A stretch of DNA of 15,308 bases. Origin: Treponema sp. (GTDB lineage: Bacteria > Spirochaetota > Spirochaetia > Treponematales > Breznakiellaceae). Positions 4,438 through 11,854 of this stretch are shown here, piece by piece. Location of the stretch: assembly GCA_031271075.1 (NCBI GenBank), contig JAISWN010000193.1:1-15308 (forward strand). Direction: 5' to 3'. Position 1 is the stretch's first letter. Every line of letters begins with the position of its first letter. The notes beneath the pieces were generated by a model. The model saw only the letters and a program-made list of their open reading frames with translations. It did not search any database and had not been told where the DNA came from. Both the position numbers and the translations under genes were made by a program.

Positions 4438-5511
4438 TTACCCCGCGGCCTGTGAGGCTTGGGCCGCGCCTGATTTTTCCGTCAGTCTTTTATAAGCCTC
4501 CCGGCCAATGGTACTCGTTCTTGCGATAAGTTTTGATTGCAGAATTTGCGATTCCGGGGGAGCCGGGGGGGAAGAAATAGCGCAGCGCAAAGCGCTTATA
4601 CCCAGAAAGCCCATTTCCTCCAGGGGCTGTTCAAAAGTTGAAATTGGAATATGCCAGAAACTTGAAAAATCGCGGTCATCGAATCCGATAATTCTAATAT
4701 CACCGGGTATTTTATACCCCATCTCCGTTAAACGGTTTATGGCGCCGGCGGCAATATAATCATTAGCGCAGAATATGCCGTCAATGCGGGGATTGATTTG
4801 CAGCAGCCGAAAGGCGGCTTCATAACCCTGCTCATAGGCGAATTCCCCATACATATAATGGGTAGAGGCAAATTCCAAACCTAAGTCGGTTACTCTGCCC
4901 TGAAATCCCTTGAGCCGCTGCTGTACTGAAAGCCGGTTTTCCGGGCCGCATATCATCGCCGGGCGCCGCATCCCGCAGGCATACAGATGATCCGCCGCTA
5001 TCATGCCGCCGCTGTAATTATCGGGAAAGATGGACAGTATGCCTTCCAGCTTCATATTTATGCTTATTACCGGAATTCCCGAATTTTTGGTAGCCGTAAA
5101 GGCATCAAAAATGGTGGGAATGTGGTTGCACAATAATAAACCCTCTATATCGTGCCCCAGAAGAAAGCGGTAAGCCCGGGAAAAATCATTGTTAAATTCA
5201 ACGCCGGAAACAAAAAGCATGGACAGGCCGCTGCCCACAAGCCCCCGTTCAATTCCCCGCACAATTTTATTTGAGAAAGTTTCGGTAATATCAATAGCGT
5301 AACAACCAATAATCCCCGAGCTGCCTTTTCGTAAATGACTGGCGCTGTGGGATGGAATATAACCAAGGCTGTCAATGGCGGAAAAAATTCTTTCTTTGGT
5401 GGCTGTCCCTACAGGGCGTTTCCCGTTAAGGGCATGGGATACCGTAGACGGGGATACCTTTGCGAGTCTTGCTACATCTAAAATGGTCGCCGAATACGCG
5501 GGATCAGCCAT
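4438..5511 (-). CDS. LacI-family transcriptional regulator
   Basis: A 357-aa DNA-binding repressor of the LacI/GalR family. The N-terminal helix-turn-helix is clear: TILDVARLAKVSPSTVSHAL, then NGKRPVGTATKERI and the hinge region LGYIPSHSASHLRKG. The rest is the periplasmic-binding-protein-like sensor domain, including IDGIFCANDYIAAGAINRL and IIGFDDRDFSSFWHIPISTF, as is standard for sugar-responding members. The frame extends to a TTG at 5523, but the ATG at 5511 lies further from the predicted start point near 5523 and is preferred. The gene is divergent from the sugar-transport operon, across a region holding two palindromes of LacI-operator type. By position it most likely controls that operon and perhaps itself; the inducer is unknown. 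Confidence 0.93.
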   Translation of the reverse strand: MADPAYSATILDVARLAKVSPSTVSHALNGKRPVGTATKERIFSAIDSLGYIPSHSASHLRKGSSGIIGCYAIDITETFSNKIVRGIERGLVGSGLSMLFVSGVEFNNDFSRAYRFLLGHDIEGLLLCNHIPTIFDAFTATKNSGIPVISINMKLEGILSIFPDNYSGGMIAADHLYACGMRRPAMICGPENRLSVQQRLKGFQGRVTDLGLEFASTHYMYGEFAYEQGYEAAFRLLQINPRIDGIFCANDYIAAGAINRLTEMGYKIPGDIRIIGFDDRDFSSFWHIPISTFEQPLEEMGFLGISALRCAISSPPAPPESQILQSKLIARTSTIGREAYKRLTEKSGAAQASQAAG

Positions 5512-5529
5512 TGTTTGTCTCAATAAGCA

Positions 5530-5842: not shown

Positions 5843-5868
5843 CCAAATTTTTACCCTTGGAGGAAAAA

Positions 5869-7134
5869 ATGAAGAAAAGCCTTGTCTTCATGACCCTGGT
5901 ACTTTGGATGATCGCCGGAATATTTGCTGCCGGCAAGAAGGAATCCGCTGAAGGAACAAGAGGGGGGGTAACCCTGACGGTTCTCTGGTTTAACGACGCG
6001 AATGAATCGGATGTCTTTCTTGCGACTATGCAGGATTATCTCCAGGCAAATCCCCATATCAAAATTGATCTCCAGGTGATTGCCTTTAGCGAGTATGAAC
6101 AGAAACTCAAGATGATGATCTCCGGGGGTGTTCCTCCGGACGCAGCCAGGGTAACCAACAATAACATCAGCACCCTGATCGACAGCTTCCTGCCTCTGGA
6201 ATCGTATATCCCCGAGTTGGAGGAACTGAAAAAGAACTATCTGCCCTCTTCCCTGGCCTTTGCCATGAACCGGCAAAACCAGATGATAGCCTTCCCTACG
6301 GAGGCGACAGCAAACGGTATGCTGGCCAACAAAACGGCCTTTAAAAACGCGGGCATCGATGTTGACGAAGTATCAAAGACCTGGACCTGGACAACCTGGG
6401 AAGAAATGATCAAAAAAGTTATTGCCGCGAATTCCGCCATGAAATACGGGCTGGCGGTGGATTTTACGAACCACCGTTTCGCAACGCTGATGTTTGCGTT
6501 CGGCGGCCGCTTCATGAACGAAACCCAGACAGGCATGAATTTTAGCAATCCCGGAACGATTAACACTATCAAATTTTTCAAGTCCCTGCATGACCAGGAA
6601 CTGATCCCCCGTTCCGTGTGGCTTGGTTCCGAAAACCCCGCGGAACTTTTTCAGGCCGGCGTGGTGGCATGCCATATCGGCGGAAGCTGGAATATCAATA
6701 CCTACAACCAGAATGTAAAAAACTTTGAGTGGGGGGCGGTAATGACTCCCCGGGGTACCATTGTTTCTTCGGTTCCGGGAGGCAAATTCATCGCTTCCTT
6801 TAAAGGCGCCGCCCATCCGGCGGAAGCGATTGCCCTGATGAAGGCCTTTTCCGACAAGGAACATACATCCCGGTATGTACGGGATACTTTCAATATTTCT
6901 TCCCGGGTGGACACCGCCGTTAACTATCCTTCCAATGCCCAGGACTTCAAAGTTTTCGGGGATCTGTTAAAGGTAACCCCCGCTTTTACCGCCAACGAAA
7001 TGAAAAATCCCGAATTAAACACTATTGCGATTTTTATTCGGGATCAGGTCGTGGAGGTACTTCTCGGAAACAGTAGTCCCGAAACAGCGGCCCGGAATGT
7101 GGATGAAAAGGGCGCGCCCCTTTTCAAGAAATAA
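5869..7134 (+). CDS. ABC transporter solute-binding protein, family 1 (carbohydrate type)
   Basis: A 421-aa exported protein that would capture a sugar-like substrate outside the inner membrane and deliver it to the two permeases that follow. Residues 1-21 form a signal peptide (MKKSLVF… ending FAAGKKE) without a lipobox cysteine, so cleavage by signal peptidase I is likelier than lipidation. The mature part has the family-1 layout: TLTVLWFNDANESDVF, then QKLKMMISGGVPPDAARV, and later ACHIGGSWNINTYNQ. The frame is open from a TTG at 5857, but the GGAGG ribosome-binding site (5859-5863) lies inside that extension, so the ATG at 5869 is the start. It is the first gene of the operon. The substrate cannot be named. 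Confidence 0.93.
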   Translation: MKKSLVFMTLVLWMIAGIFAAGKKESAEGTRGGVTLTVLWFNDANESDVFLATMQDYLQANPHIKIDLQVIAFSEYEQKLKMMISGGVPPDAARVTNNNISTLIDSFLPLESYIPELEELKKNYLPSSLAFAMNRQNQMIAFPTEATANGMLANKTAFKNAGIDVDEVSKTWTWTTWEEMIKKVIAANSAMKYGLAVDFTNHRFATLMFAFGGRFMNETQTGMNFSNPGTINTIKFFKSLHDQELIPRSVWLGSENPAELFQAGVVACHIGGSWNINTYNQNVKNFEWGAVMTPRGTIVSSVPGGKFIASFKGAAHPAEAIALMKAFSDKEHTSRYVRDTFNISSRVDTAVNYPSNAQDFKVFGDLLKVTPAFTANEMKNPELNTIAIFIRDQVVEVLLGNSSPETAARNVDEKGAPLFKK

Positions 7135-7163
7135 CGGTTAAGCCTGAAACCAGCGGGGGAAGA

Positions 7164-8051
7164 ATGAAAAAACCAAAGGGAAATTTTAACCAGATCCTGG
7201 CGCCCCTGCTGTTTTTAACGCCCAATATGCTGATATTCCTTGTGTTTATTATCGTTCCCGCTGTTCAGGGGCTAAGGATGTCTTTTATGGACTGGGGGGT
7301 GTTTAAAACTCCCCGGTTTATCGGACTTGATAACTTCAGGGAATTACTGTCCGACTATGTTTTCAGGATTACGGTAAGAAATACGCTGGTGTATTCCGCC
7401 CTTACCGTTGTTCTGCTCCTTACGGCGGCCATGATCCTGGCCATGATGCTTCACAAAAACTCCGTTCCGGGGGAGCGGGTTTTCCGGGCGATCTTCTATA
7501 TCCCCGCGCTTTTAAGCATGATCACCGTTGGTATTTCCTGGCGCTTCATCCTGGGCGATGAAATGGGAATTATCAATTATTTTATCAGGCTGGGGGGAGG
7601 AACAGGGGTACGGTGGCTGACGGATAGTGTTCTTGCTATGTTCAGTGTTATCGTGGTGTCCGTTTGGGCAAGCGCCGGATATTACATGGTTATCCTCATT
7701 GCCGGCCTCCAGGCTGTTCCCAGGGAACTTTATGAGGCCGCCCATATTGACGGGGCTTCGCCGGTAAAGGTTTTTTTAAGGATTACCCTTCCGCTGCTTA
7801 GGAGTACCATCCTGGTTGTCATGGTATTGTCAACTATCAGTACCTTTAAAGCATACGAATTAATTTCCGTCATGACGAAGGGAGGCCCCGGCTATGCTAC
7901 AAAGTTTATTGTTCAGCAGGTATATCAGGCCGCTTTTGTGGAAGATCGCCTTGGATACGCCACGTCCATGTCGATGGTACTCATGCTGATGACAGGTTTG
8001 TTCACCCTCATCCAATTCAAAACAAGCGGAAGGGAACAGGATTATGAATGA
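7164..8051 (+). CDS. ABC sugar transporter permease, MalF/UgpA type
   Basis: A 295-aa inner-membrane permease with six predicted helices; the first is LLFLTPNMLIFLVFIIVPAV. The EAA loop that docks the ATPase is present (EAAHIDGASPVKVFLRITLP, from residue 191). It resembles the first permease of CUT1 carbohydrate importers. A GGGGGAAGA ribosome-binding site lies just before the ATG. It starts 29 bp after the binding-protein gene and overlaps the next permease by 8 bp (ATGAATGA), which suggests coupled translation and equal amounts of the two subunits. No ATPase gene is in the window; CUT1 systems often share one encoded elsewhere (MsiK/UgpC type). Confidence 0.94.
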   Translation: MKKPKGNFNQILAPLLFLTPNMLIFLVFIIVPAVQGLRMSFMDWGVFKTPRFIGLDNFRELLSDYVFRITVRNTLVYSALTVVLLLTAAMILAMMLHKNSVPGERVFRAIFYIPALLSMITVGISWRFILGDEMGIINYFIRLGGGTGVRWLTDSVLAMFSVIVVSVWASAGYYMVILIAGLQAVPRELYEAAHIDGASPVKVFLRITLPLLRSTILVVMVLSTISTFKAYELISVMTKGGPGYATKFIVQQVYQAAFVEDRLGYATSMSMVLMLMTGLFTLIQFKTSGREQDYE

Positions 8052-8865
8052 GATAATCAAGAAAAGGGTATTTAGCACCGTTTTGTTTTTCTTGTCTTTT
8101 TGCACACTGTTTCCGGTTTTGTGGGCCGCCCTTTCATCTTTTAAGCCCCAGTCGGACCTTTTTGTCATTCCCCTGTCCTTTTTGCCCCGGCGGTGGACCT
8201 TTGAAAATTATGTCGCCGCGCTGGGGCATGGAAAATTTGTCGTTTATTTTTCAAATACCCTCTTTGTCTCCGTAACGGCTACGATCATTACGGTGATTAT
8301 CAATATCATGGCAGGTTATGCCCTGTCAAAATACCAGTTTCCCGGCAGGGACATCATCTTTATGGTTATGCTGGGAACCCTGATGATTCCCCTCCAGGTG
8401 ATTATGATACCTATTTTTCTTCAGCTTAAAAACATGGGGATGCTTAACAGCCTGTGGGGAATTATTATTCCGCCGGCGGCGACACCGACGGGGGTGTTTC
8501 TTTCGCGGCAATATATACAAACCATTCCCAATTCTCTTATCGAAGCGGCGCGGATAGACGGGGGAAATGAATTCTTTATTTTCCAACGGATTATTATCCC
8601 GATTGTTAAGCCGGTAGTCGCGACTATAGCCATATTTTCTTTTATGTGGAGATGGAACGATTATCTGTGGCCCTTGATCGTTATTTCAAAAAATGACCGG
8701 CAGACCATTCAGCAGGCCCTGGCAAATTTTGTCGGGCAGTTGCAAATAAACTGGTCAAACCTTTTAGCCATGACAATCATCACCATTATACCAATCGTCA
8801 TCGTTTTTTTGTCTTTTCAGAAATTTTTTATACAGGGAATAACGGCTGGTTCTGTAAAAGGATAA
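8044..8865 (+). CDS. ABC sugar transporter permease, MalG/UgpE type
   Basis: A 273-aa permease, the partner of the gene before it, with six predicted membrane helices. The EAA motif is EAARIDGGNEFFIFQRIIIP (from residue 168). TLMIPLQVIMIPIF and FMWRWNDYLWPLIVI are typical of the second permease in CUT1 importers. The start at 8044 lies within the end of the previous gene and has AGGA close upstream. The protein would form a heterodimer with the MalF-type permease and take substrate from the exported binding protein. Confidence 0.94.
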   Translation: MNEIIKKRVFSTVLFFLSFCTLFPVLWAALSSFKPQSDLFVIPLSFLPRRWTFENYVAALGHGKFVVYFSNTLFVSVTATIITVIINIMAGYALSKYQFPGRDIIFMVMLGTLMIPLQVIMIPIFLQLKNMGMLNSLWGIIIPPAATPTGVFLSRQYIQTIPNSLIEAARIDGGNEFFIFQRIIIPIVKPVVATIAIFSFMWRWNDYLWPLIVISKNDRQTIQQALANFVGQLQINWSNLLAMTIITIIPIVIVFLSFQKFFIQGITAGSVKG

Positions 8866-8879
8866 AGGAGACTATCGGT

Positions 8880-9899
8880 ATGACTAAAATAATGCGGGAA
8901 CTTTTTTTTACCGGCAAGTTCACTGTGAGCGCCCTGGAAGCGGAAATTCCCGATCAATTATCCCCTTCGCAGGTATTAATAGAAAACCGGTACTCAATGT
9001 TGAGCCCGGGAACGGAGCTTGCCCTGTTTACGGGAACCCATGTGGGGTTCGCCGATCCTGAAATAGGGTGGTGCAGGTATCCCATTAAAGCAGGGTATTC
9101 GTCAGTGGGGACAGTTGCCGCCGCGGGAACGGAAGTACCCTTCAGGATTGGCGATCAGGTAGTTCATTATCAACCCCACGCGGATTATTCGGTGCTTGAT
9201 GTAACGAAAGATATTATATGCCCCATTCCCCGGGAACTGGACAGTAAACTGGCCCTTTTTGTTCGTTTCGGGCAGATAGCCTTTACTGCCGTCTGCACAT
9301 CATTAAATCAGGGGGCGGTACTGATACTGGGATGTGGATTAATCGGAAACCTCTGCGCCCAGCTTTTTCAGATGCAAACCGGGCGGCAGACAATTGCCGC
9401 TGATATTTCCCCGGCCAGGATTTTGCTGGCGGAAAAATGCGGCGTCAAACATACGGTCGATTCCTTAAAAGAGAATCTCAAGGAAGCTGTTTACCGGATT
9501 ACCGGAGGCCGGGGGGTTGATACGGCGATAGAGGCTACCGGGGTCCCTGCCCTGGTATCCGAATGCCTGGAAAAGATCAATCGGCACGGCGAAGTTATCC
9601 TTCTAAGTTCCACCAGGGGAAAGGTTGAACTTGATGTCTACAAACTTGTCCACCGGAAAGTAACCAGTATTATTGGCGCCCATGAACTGCGGTATCCCTT
9701 GTTTTCTGAGGGGGCTTCCCGAAACAGCCATCAGGATTTCAGTAATTTGGTTTTGAAGGGCCTGTGTTCCGGCGTGTTAATCGCTGAACCTTTTATTACC
9801 GATATTATCCCCTACACCCGGGTAGAGGAGGCATATCATTGGCTGCTTGATGACCAGGATAATCATATTGGTGTTATTATTGACTGGGAAGGAGTTTAA
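8880..9899 (+). CDS. Medium-chain dehydrogenase/reductase (zinc-less 'alcohol dehydrogenase' type)
   Basis: A 339-aa oxidoreductase of the MDR superfamily. The Rossmann nucleotide site is clear: VLILGCGLIGNLCAQLF, with GxGxxG at 151-156, and an acidic residue after the second strand (AADISPAR, D175) that in this fold favours NAD(H) over NADP(H). The catalytic-domain signature is MLSPGTELALFTGTHVGF. The usual catalytic zinc Cys/His pair (GHE) and the four-cysteine structural zinc loop are absent, so it probably works without zinc. AAAGGAG precedes the start. The gene is in the transport operon 14 bp after the second permease, so it likely oxidises or reduces the imported compound or a derivative; the reaction is unknown. 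Confidence 0.85.
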   Translation: MTKIMRELFFTGKFTVSALEAEIPDQLSPSQVLIENRYSMLSPGTELALFTGTHVGFADPEIGWCRYPIKAGYSSVGTVAAAGTEVPFRIGDQVVHYQPHADYSVLDVTKDIICPIPRELDSKLALFVRFGQIAFTAVCTSLNQGAVLILGCGLIGNLCAQLFQMQTGRQTIAADISPARILLAEKCGVKHTVDSLKENLKEAVYRITGGRGVDTAIEATGVPALVSECLEKINRHGEVILLSSTRGKVELDVYKLVHRKVTSIIGAHELRYPLFSEGASRNSHQDFSNLVLKGLCSGVLIAEPFITDIIPYTRVEEAYHWLLDDQDNHIGVIIDWEGV

Positions 9900-9925
9900 C
9901 AGTATAGGCGAGGGCTGTTCCCCGG

Positions 9926-10329
9926 ATGAGGCTGCTGGGTACAAATTACATACGTATCATGTCATACCCCAATGACGGACTCGGGGGGAGGCATGGAAAA
10001 AAGAGGCTTTTCGCCGTATCAGAGAATTAACCAGTATTGCTCTTTCATCATTCAATTCACCCACCTTGCGGGTGGTGTTTGATACAGGAAATCCGGTTTC
10101 TCACGGCGGCGGGAGACGGGGATTGTTCAGTTCTGGAAATTATGAAAGACTTGATTGCACGGGGGTATAGGGGTAGTTTTCCATTGAGCCCCATATTCTC
10201 GCCCATGTTCACCTAAACGGCAATGATGAGAGAACCGCAGATCCGGAAAAGATGTACTTGGAATATGGCCGCAGGGCAACCCTGTTGTTGGAAACCGTCT
10301 TGGGAAACCAAGGAGCCGCGCAGAAGTAA
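9926..10329 (+). pseudogene. Decayed sugar phosphate isomerase/epimerase (xylose-isomerase-like TIM barrel)
   Basis: Conserved pieces of this family can be read in order across two frames. LGTNYIRIMSYPNDGL starts at 9935 (frame 2). After a shift near 9983-9991 comes AWKKEAFRRIRELTSIA (from 9991), then SPTLRVVFDTGNPVSHG, ending near 10107 (frame 1). Next is GDGDCSVLEIMKDLIARGY (from 10112, frame 2). After loss of one T in the run at 10177-10180 comes SIEPHILAHVHLNGNDERT (from 10180, frame 1), continuing to GNQGAAQK and a stop at 10327-10329. About 30 codons between ELTSIA and SPTLR and about 50 between SHG and GDGD are missing, as is the N-terminal third. An AAGGAG at 9889-9894 may be the old ribosome-binding site. 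Lengths missing are judged from memory of the family. Confidence 0.85.
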
Positions 10330-10350
10330 CATGCCCGGAAAGTCATGTTG

Positions 10351-10377
10351 TTCCCAAAACCAGCCGGGTTTTGGGAA
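10351..10377. repeat. Perfect 11-bp inverted repeat with 5-nt loop
   Basis: TTCCCAAAACC (10351-10361) pairs fully with GGTTTTGGGAA (10367-10377) around AGCCG. It lies between the pseudogene stop and the Gfo/Idh start. No T-run follows on either strand, so it is not a standard terminator. It could be an operator, an RNA-processing or stability hairpin, or the remains of a mobile repeat. Confidence 0.85.
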
Positions 10378-10422
10378 AAGTTCAATAATTCCCACAGACG
10401 ACAATGGAAAAAGGGGATAAAA

Positions 10423-11454
10423 ATGAACCGGATCAGAGTGGGAATTGCCGGGTGCGGAAACATCGGGGGTTTTCACGCCAAAGTTCTCCGGGAAGTGGAA
10501 GGGGCTGTCCTCCGGGCGGTGGCGGACGCCAATTTCCCCGCCGCGCAAAAACTGGCCGGACAATACGGCTGCGCCGCTTACGCGAGCCTTACGGATCTGC
10601 TTGACAAAGGAGACCTTGACCTGGTATCCGTTTGCCTGCCTCCCGCCCTGCACTACGAGGCGGCTATCGCCGCCGCGGACAGGGGGATCCATATATTAAT
10701 GGAAAAGCCCATGGACGTATCAGGCGCCCGGGCTGCCGGGGTAATCGAACACTGCGGGAACAGGGGCGTAAAGCTGGGTGTTATCAGCCAGCACCGTTTT
10801 GATCCGGCCATTCAGATATTGAAAAGCCTCATTGATCAGAACAGGCTGGGTAAACGGCTCATGGGAACCGCCAGGGTACTCTGGCACCGGAACCCAGAAT
10901 ACTACCATGACGCCGGAACATGGCGGGGGCAAAAGTCCAATCAGGCCGGGGCCTTGATGAATCAGTCGATCCATTATATAGACCTTCTCCAGTATCTGAT
11001 GGACGGGGTGGAAGCGGTACAGTCGGTTTGCCGGACTCTCCTGCATGACATAGAGGTGGAAGATACCGGGCTTGTCTTGCTGCGCTTTAAGAACGGCGCG
11101 ATAGGCAGCATAGAGGCCACTACCATTGCGTATCCCGGCCTTATGGCGGAACTCAATATCTATACGGAAAAGGCAACGGTTTCAGTCCGGGATGATAAGC
11201 TGGCTTTTTATCACGCCAAAGATGGCCCTGTCCCCGAACTGGACGCCCTGCTTGCCGGCAAATCCGGACAAGCCGCGGTAACCGATCCTCTGGCCCTTGA
11301 TACCAAAGGCCATGTCTCCCAGTACCTGGATATGATCGACGCCATAAACAACAACCGGGAGCCCGCCGTAAGCGGGGAAGAAGGCCGCCTTCCCCTGGTG
11401 TTGATAGAAACCATCTACGCGGCTTCCGAAAAGGAAAACTGGACCCCCCTATAA
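10423..11454 (+). CDS. Gfo/Idh/MocA family NAD(P)-dependent oxidoreductase
   Basis: A 343-aa dehydrogenase of the glucose-fructose oxidoreductase / inositol dehydrogenase family, which acts on sugars, polyols and related compounds. The N-terminal Rossmann fold has GIAGCGNIGGFH (GxGxxG at 10-15). EKP at 94-96 carries the conserved active-site lysine. ALMNQSIHYIDLLQYLMDG holds the catalytic His184 and Asp187. The frame runs back to an ATG at 10345, but the ATG at 10423 has a good ribosome-binding site (AAGGGG, 10411-10416) and gives the normal family N-terminus. It is the last gene of the transport operon. With the MDR enzyme and the lost isomerase it outlines a redox route for an imported sugar or polyol; the substrate is unknown. 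Confidence 0.92.
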   Translation: MNRIRVGIAGCGNIGGFHAKVLREVEGAVLRAVADANFPAAQKLAGQYGCAAYASLTDLLDKGDLDLVSVCLPPALHYEAAIAAADRGIHILMEKPMDVSGARAAGVIEHCGNRGVKLGVISQHRFDPAIQILKSLIDQNRLGKRLMGTARVLWHRNPEYYHDAGTWRGQKSNQAGALMNQSIHYIDLLQYLMDGVEAVQSVCRTLLHDIEVEDTGLVLLRFKNGAIGSIEATTIAYPGLMAELNIYTEKATVSVRDDKLAFYHAKDGPVPELDALLAGKSGQAAVTDPLALDTKGHVSQYLDMIDAINNNREPAVSGEEGRLPLVLIETIYAASEKENWTPL

Positions 11455-11456
11455 GC

Positions 11457-11470
11457 GGCCGCCCGCGGCC
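11457..11470. other. GC-only hairpin after the Gfo/Idh gene
   Basis: GGCCG-CCCG-CGGCC can fold into a 5-bp GC stem two bases after the stop codon, immediately before the -35 box of the rpsF promoter. There is no T-run, so a role as terminator is doubtful. Confidence 0.35.
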
Positions 11471-11499
11471 TTGACCTGAATCCCCCGGCCGGTTATTAT
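11471..11499 (+). promoter_or_regulatory. Sigma70-type promoter of the rpsF operon
   Basis: TTGACC (11471-11476), a 17-bp spacer, then TATTAT (11494-11499). Start near 11505-11507, giving a leader of about 57 nt before rpsF. Confidence 0.75.
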
Positions 11500-11504
11500 A
11501 GAGA

Positions 11505-11560
11505 AACCTCTTTGTCCGCCCCAGGGCGGACCTAGACACAAATCTTGTCCGTAAGGAGGG
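11505..11560 (+). promoter_or_regulatory. rpsF 5' leader with alternative hairpins, candidate S6/S18 autoregulatory element
   Basis: GTCCGCC (11514-11520) pairs perfectly with GGCGGAC (11525-11531). A second GTCCG at 11547-11551 can pair with the same CGGAC (11527-11531), and GACA (11535-11538) with TGTC (11546-11549). The two folds exclude each other, and the second ends 1 nt before the ribosome-binding site AAGGAGGG (11553-11560). In many bacteria the S6:S18 complex binds a structured rpsF leader with a key CCG. Whether this leader fits that motif could not be tested here. Confidence 0.5.
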
Positions 11561-11563
11561 TCC

Positions 11564-11854
11564 ATGCGCCGTTATGAATTGACGGTTATCTTCCCCTTGG
11601 AAGAGGACCAGCACAGGGCGGGCCGGGAACAGCTTCTCAGCGACCTGGCCGCCAACGGGGCGGAGATCGAAAAAACCGATGAAACCGGTGATCGAGATCT
11701 CGCCTATGAAGTAAAAAAGAGAAAGCGGGGTAAATACGTGCTTTTTACTCTCAAAGCCGATCCGGCGAAAATTATCGTCATGGATCGGGTTTTCAAGCTG
11801 AACGCTAATCTTCTTAAGTATCTGTTCGTAAAGATAGACGATCAGGGGGTATAA
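11564..11854 (+). CDS. rpsF: 30S ribosomal protein S6
   Basis: A 96-aa protein of the central 30S domain that binds 16S rRNA as a pair with S18, encoded two genes downstream. MRRYELTVIFP is the usual first strand. TGDRDLAYEVKKRKRGKYVL matches the conserved LAY-I-K-G-Y block, and RVFKLNANLLKYLFVKID matches the last helix and strand. Length is normal, without the glutamate tail seen in E. coli. A strong AAGGAGGG lies 3 nt before the ATG. The stop overlaps the ssb start by one base (TAATG), so translation of the two is likely coupled. Confidence 0.96.
   Translation: MRRYELTVIFPLEEDQHRAGREQLLSDLAANGAEIEKTDETGDRDLAYEVKKRKRGKYVLFTLKADPAKIIVMDRVFKLNANLLKYLFVKIDDQGV

Follow-up and report, generated by a model that had tools for sequence, protein, structure and literature searches.

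Remnant of a predicted sugar isomerase gene, probably broken late, between intact oxidoreductase genes of a Treponema sp.

The DNA stretch analyzed here (hereafter, the window; 15,308 nucleotides) is contig C138 of a genome assembly of 2.53 Mb, which comprises 394 contigs and is 62.93% complete. It likely belongs to a Treponema of a gut, probably that of a termite, as judged by kinship to Treponema sp. isolate Cc175_bin57 (G028; of another genus in the same family), the nearest relative with an accessible locus. This locus is designated L010, L029 or L040 below, and its isomerase P0001. A published study (PMC7024585), in whose main text the name Cc175 is absent, describes 54 Treponema I genomes from termite guts. 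The locus of interest consists of a divergently oriented gene of a LacI-type regulator, followed by the genes of a solute-binding protein, two ABC permeases and a zinc-type dehydrogenase, then by a gene remnant and the gene of a Gfo/Idh/MocA oxidoreductase (Table 1). No Pfam match to the N-terminal catalytic domain was obtained for the zinc-type dehydrogenase. When compared with relatives, the transporter, dehydrogenase, LacI and Gfo/Idh genes are full length, in agreement with the original prediction, made from the window sequence, that the genes on both sides of the remnant, the transporter and the regulator are intact.

Table 1. Genes, remnant segments and repeat at the isomerase locus (window coordinates).
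Feature	Position	Strand	Remarks
LacI-type regulator, intact	4438..5523	-	76% identical to the LacI gene after the intact isomerase in L029
Predicted ABC sugar transporter (solute-binding protein and two permeases), intact	5857..8865	+	
Zinc-type (MDR) dehydrogenase, intact, 339 aa	8880..9899	+	orthologues precede intact isomerase
Pseudogene of predicted PF01261 sugar phosphate isomerase/epimerase	9904..10305	+	402 bp left of 864 (L010)
Start-codon relic, now ATA	9904..9906	+	beside the ~269-bp deletion (residues 2-92); placed by eye
Segment 1, residues 93-116 (RAVPRMRLLGTNYIRIMSYPNDGL)	9911..9982	+	20/24 identical to L010; 24/24 to P0006
Segment 2, residues 117-136, entered via single-base loss	9982..10041	+	11/20 identical to L010
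Segment 3, residues 163-185, past 78-bp in-frame deletion (residues 137-162)	10042..10110	+	19/23 identical to L010
Segment 4, residues 224-245, past 113-bp deletion (residues 186-223)	10112..10177	+	16/22 identical to L010
Segment 5, residues 246-288, entered via second single-base loss	10177..10305	+	24/43 identical to L010
Dispersed palindromic repeat, core CCCAAAACCARCCGGGTTTTGG	10333-10394 (core 10353-10374)		between the remnant and the Gfo/Idh gene
Gfo/Idh/MocA oxidoreductase, intact, 343 aa	10423..11454	+	downstream of the remnant

Frameshift-aware alignment of positions 9900-10345 with the 289-aa isomerase of L010 yielded five ordered segments with 90 of 132 residues identical; the corresponding values were 103/132 for P0006 and 104/130 for P0005, and when the DNA of the window and L010 was aligned directly, high-identity blocks appeared in order. 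The alignment score of 441.7 compares with a mean of 50.1 (sd 8.9, maximum 79.25) in 400 dinucleotide-preserving shuffles, with at most 75.05 in 66 window segments taken from both strands apart from the sense strand of the remnant locus, and with 57 for the antisense of the locus. The remnant was thereby recognized as a decayed sugar phosphate isomerase/epimerase gene, as had been proposed originally: the four fragments named then (SYPNDGL, VVFDTGNP, SIEPHI and LEYGRR) are all present in the right order, and two single-base shifts, two deletions and the loss of the N-terminus are each seen in the alignment. The extent proposed then (9926-10329) pointed to the right place, but the remnant itself is somewhat wider at the 5' side. 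Three deletions (~269, 78 and 113 bp) and two single bases make up all 462 bp missing. The loss of the N-terminus is counted as the third deletion, because a relic of the former start, ATA, is still found directly after the dehydrogenase stop codon. The N-terminus of P0006 reads LELLLTGKEFDGMSGIYTR, and the window in the same frame at 9880 reads LTGKEFNSIG; since the two readings line up, the M of P0006 faces the I (ATA) of the window. This position was read by eye, as the DNA aligner put the few bases of the start relic elsewhere, and the size of the 269-bp deletion depends on it, while the deletion ends in general are good to a few bases, the reference (L010) being another species.

The intact orthologue (L029:9047-9913) matches PF01261 (AP_endonuc_2, xylose isomerase-like TIM barrel) with an E-value of 1.7e-31 and 110.2 bits at a cut-off of 31.1. 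The remnant is absent from the 12 PF01261 profile matches of its genome, and two of its fragments, scanned singly against Pfam, gave no match, which is to be expected from their length of only 23-24 residues; it was comparison with close orthologues, not the PF01261 profile, that revealed it. In the predicted structure of the intact orthologue (47 sequences, mean pLDDT 94.0, pTM 0.91), barrel strands 1, 2, 3, 5 and 7 (residues 8-10, 33-36, 65-69, 142-150 and 201-211, respectively), as assigned by our own reading of the strand list of the model, fall within the stretches deleted from the remnant, and strands 4, 6 and 8 (105-110, 171-176 and 245-248) survive; with five of the eight predicted strands gone, the remnant would not make an eight-stranded barrel. 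Also deleted are 23 of the 45 columns invariant in 47 homologues (chosen among the 120 listed of 1934 found), including E146 and H203/H205. The metal-binding pattern of PF01261 is composed of Glu, Asp, His and Glu. By analogy with related epimerases, E146 and H203/H205 presumably bind the metal, and of the putative ligands the remnant keeps only D176 and E249, so that its metal-binding set would be incomplete. Because of these losses of strands and invariant residues, an active enzyme would not be expected from the remnant in whatever frame, and, as judged by the deletions, a functional product would be absent.

The substrate of the lost enzyme could not be named from the fold and sequence matches of the intact orthologue. 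UlaE (L-xylulose-5-phosphate 3-epimerase), D-tagatose 3-epimerase and Art22 match its predicted fold with TM of ~0.71-0.76 by query length, at 14-18% identity in structural alignments, which is too low to read the substrate; unlike these known xylose isomerase-like TIM-barrel structures, the remnant has lost most of the fold. Sugar epimerases, isomerases and IolE-like proteins predominate among the best 50 fold matches listed (13-18% identity), with a 2-hydroxy-3-keto-glucal hydratase at rank 29 (TM 0.69), and by sequence only MJ1311 and Art22 match the intact orthologue.

The ancestral state of the locus is seen in relatives. In Cc175_bin57 (L010), the intact isomerase gene lies directly downstream of a dehydrogenase gene 75% identical to that of the window. 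Six loci of named organisms carry an intact relative of the isomerase (L040, the same locus as L029, and L041-L045), and the comparison of the same locus in relatives, which the original prediction had called for, showed the dehydrogenase directly before the isomerase in five of them (L029, L041, L042, L043 and L045, not L044), the LacI gene directly after it in four (L029, L041, L042 and L043), and the same ABC transporter genes upstream in three (L041, L042 and L045), the contig of L043 ending too early. P0122, the closest listed dehydrogenase besides the window's own (87% identical), ends with GIIIDWKGV and a stop, and the N-terminus of P0006 is an out-of-frame reading of the same dehydrogenase tail. 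Both sequences come from a JGI set with the longest contig of 20,506 bp; this common origin and the shared tail strongly suggest that they are located on one contig. P0001 and P0006 represent the same gene as the remnant (68% and 78% identity over its surviving residues) and sit behind the same dehydrogenase, in the case of P0006 by the above reasoning; they are full length (289 and 301 aa), whereas the remnant lacks 462 of 864 bp. Within the genus (G001-G006), dehydrogenase matches reach at most 37% identity (G004), the others being weak or absent, and an isomerase match at E 1e-20 was found in none of the six genomes, thus leaving no same-genus ancestral locus for comparison. At the same threshold, the intact isomerase was matched in 8 of 195 family genomes, namely the query source G028 and seven others at 30-39% identity. 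As judged from these loci, the window keeps the regulator, the transporter and the dehydrogenase of the cluster, and the isomerase is lost.

The spirochaete loci L041, L042 and L045 share a sugar cluster composed of an ABC transporter, a glycoside hydrolase of family GH31, a zinc-type dehydrogenase and a PF01261 isomerase, with LacI in L041 and L042. An alpha-glycoside may be processed oxidatively by this combination of GH31, dehydrogenase and isomerase. The window contains no open frame of GH31 size (the longest is 425 aa), and the only GH31 gene of the genome was ruled out as the missing partner, being 26-27% identical to the GH31 genes of L041, L042 and L045. In G028 (L029:8020-13602), the genes of an MFS_2 sugar transporter and of another Gfo/Idh protein, 33% identical to that of the window, come after the same three genes (dehydrogenase, isomerase and LacI); one type of transporter was seemingly swapped for another inside a single pathway cluster. 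No published description of this sugar cluster or pathway was found in the literature searched.

Among 195 family genomes, the closest match of the Gfo/Idh gene downstream of the remnant is in G059 (69% over 239 residues), the only other match at E 1e-60, and the 1.4 kb upstream of it, examined by eye, contains no dehydrogenase or isomerase frame. In L029 and L042, Gfo/Idh genes also occur near the cluster, but their identity to the window's gene is just 33-34%. Given these two observations, shared ancestry of the dehydrogenase-isomerase-Gfo/Idh arrangement is unsupported. The six closest listed relatives of the Gfo/Idh protein (P0169-P0174, 94-87% identical) are none of them shown with the 20,506-bp contig. 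Considering the sources of these relatives, the upstream region in G059 and the repeat that separates the gene from the remnant, the Gfo/Idh gene perhaps does not belong to the same operon. Hence, of the otherwise intact operon proposed originally, the intactness of the genes stands, but the membership of the Gfo/Idh gene is doubtful.

The repeat between the remnant and the Gfo/Idh gene forms a hairpin at 10351-10377 (-19.1 kcal/mol for 10335-10395, z -2.8). With a covariance model of 11 copies (seven from this genome and four from G028), hits at E 0.01 were obtained in 20 of 39 genomes: 7/7 in the genus (17-134 matches each), 12/17 in the rest of the family and 1/15 in the rest of the order, where at most 138 candidates were scored per genome and some places were counted on both strands. 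It resembles a REP-type repeat belonging to this Treponema group, and no Rfam family attained its gathering score there. A copy is located in G028 (L029:13614-13675) directly after the Gfo/Idh gene that ends the cluster, which hints that such repeats may sit at the ends of transcription units.

The isomerase gene probably broke late, as indicated by the surviving conserved columns and by a dN/dS still typical of a coding gene. Not one of the 36 surviving conserved columns has changed, neither the 22 invariant ones nor the 14 others with conservation of at least 90%. These columns hold ~83 nonsynonymous sites, and because none of them has changed, a neutral divergence above ~0.036 per site since the inactivation seems unlikely (95% bound); the synonymous distance between the window and G028 is 0.9-1.1 for both lineages together. 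All conserved columns are also kept by 22 of the 47 intact homologues, so full conservation is not rare. Residues unseen in the 47 homologues number five of 129 in the remnant and one or two in each of its six closest intact relatives; when the intact homologues were left out one by one, unseen residues made up 3.1% as a median and 13.3% at most, a range that includes the remnant. The dN/dS values are 0.188 for the remnant, 0.166 for the dehydrogenase and 0.142 for LacI, and the pN/pS of the remnant (0.31) exceeds that of each of the 220 equally long LacI stretches and is reached by 62 of 211 dehydrogenase stretches. Relative-rate counts with the outgroups P0001, P0002, P0012 and P0013 gave 5/7, 8/7, 4/0 and 4/2 changes (remnant only/P0006 only) and 7/6, 11/5, 4/1 and 5/2 (remnant only/P0005 only). 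Seven of these eight comparisons, which share data and are not independent, lean slightly to the remnant, the exception being 5 vs 7; the largest chi2 is 4.0 (4 vs 0), the next 2.25 (11 vs 5), and the others do not exceed 2.25. The lean of the dehydrogenase is smaller (19/15, 17/15, 14/12 and 12/11; chi2 of at most 0.47). A short spell of relaxed change would fit these data, a long one would not. The recent decay considered as one option originally is thus favored by the conserved columns and dN/dS and not contradicted by the relative-rate counts. Either a mutation spectrum rich in deletions or a small number of complex events would be consistent with the loss of 462 bp alongside untouched conserved residues.

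Considering these data, we are highly confident that positions 9904-10305 represent the broken remnant of a predicted isomerase gene, likely inactivated recently, with its neighbors intact. Breaks of this kind could also be ascribed to faults of the fragmented assembly, the gene being whole in the organism, and a local fault in a genome of 394 contigs and 62.93% completeness could indeed produce five losses with conserved residues untouched. Such an origin is nevertheless very improbable: three separate deletions fall within one gene, while the other genes of the contig are full length, all 12 PF01261 matches of the genome are free of internal stops, and ATA in place of the start codon is a substitution, not a gap. 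It is hardly credible that the remnant, lying between the two oxidoreductase genes, acts in regulation or as an RNA. The stable hairpin just 3' of it and a somewhat elevated number of promoter-like sites in 8800-11600 (five vs 2.3 in shuffles, sd 1.3) could be cited for such a role, but none of the five sites falls within the remnant, no Rfam family was detected at the gathering score, the hairpin belongs to a dispersed repeat outside the remnant, and terminator-like sites, one of four located in the remnant, show no excess (four vs 3.8 in shuffles).

Replacement of the lost enzyme by another PF01261 protein encoded elsewhere, which would have allowed the local copy to decay, is compatible with the inactivation described above and may be kept as a tentative, rather unlikely, addition to it. 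Of the 12 PF01261 matches in the genome, 11 exceed the curated cut-off, and a genome search with the intact isomerase found, after the remnant's own pieces, an isomerase-like fragment cut by the edge of contig C79 and adjoining a Gfo/Idh gene. This best candidate, however, shares just 31% identity with the intact orthologue in an alignment of 118 residues (E 9.4e-6); the search for another copy suggested originally thus produced this fragment but no intact orthologue in the assembled genome, 62.93% complete. Moreover, the genome gave a single further match to the window's dehydrogenase, at 20% identity, and its assembled part hence shows no second such cluster. Improbable, in our estimation, is a scenario in which the isomerase was shed as the pathway was rebuilt, with the transporter and the dehydrogenase remaining under selection: the dehydrogenase and the newly neighboring Gfo/Idh protein would now make up a shorter route, or other gut microbes would receive the keto-sugar product. 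The remnant is likely an ordinary pseudogene left by ordinary recent gene loss: it is homologous to an intact gene, and its reading frame is destroyed. Ordinary pseudogenes of bacteria can stem from the recent loss of a single operon gene, and the remnant shares with them the deletions, the frame breaks, the lost start codon and the intact neighbors, with no difference of principle.

Since the isomerase gene, where intact in related spirochaetes, comes after the same dehydrogenase, the predicted isomerase likely performed the next step after this enzyme in one sugar pathway. Three deletions, two single-base losses and the changed start codon have left fragments in different frames that would yield no enzyme, and the organism would have either lost the isomerase step or come to cover it with another enzyme. 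The original reading is hereby extended with a dating of the break and with the ancestral state shown in relatives. The finding is mainly useful for annotation, as a plain ORF search or a Pfam family search misses the remnant. One gene of a predicted uptake-and-oxidation cluster is apparently seen here soon after its inactivation, with several deletions and its conserved residues untouched, and, if the neighboring genes prove to be in use without the isomerase, the locus would be a handy case for studying the persistence of a catabolic pathway that lacks one of its middle steps.
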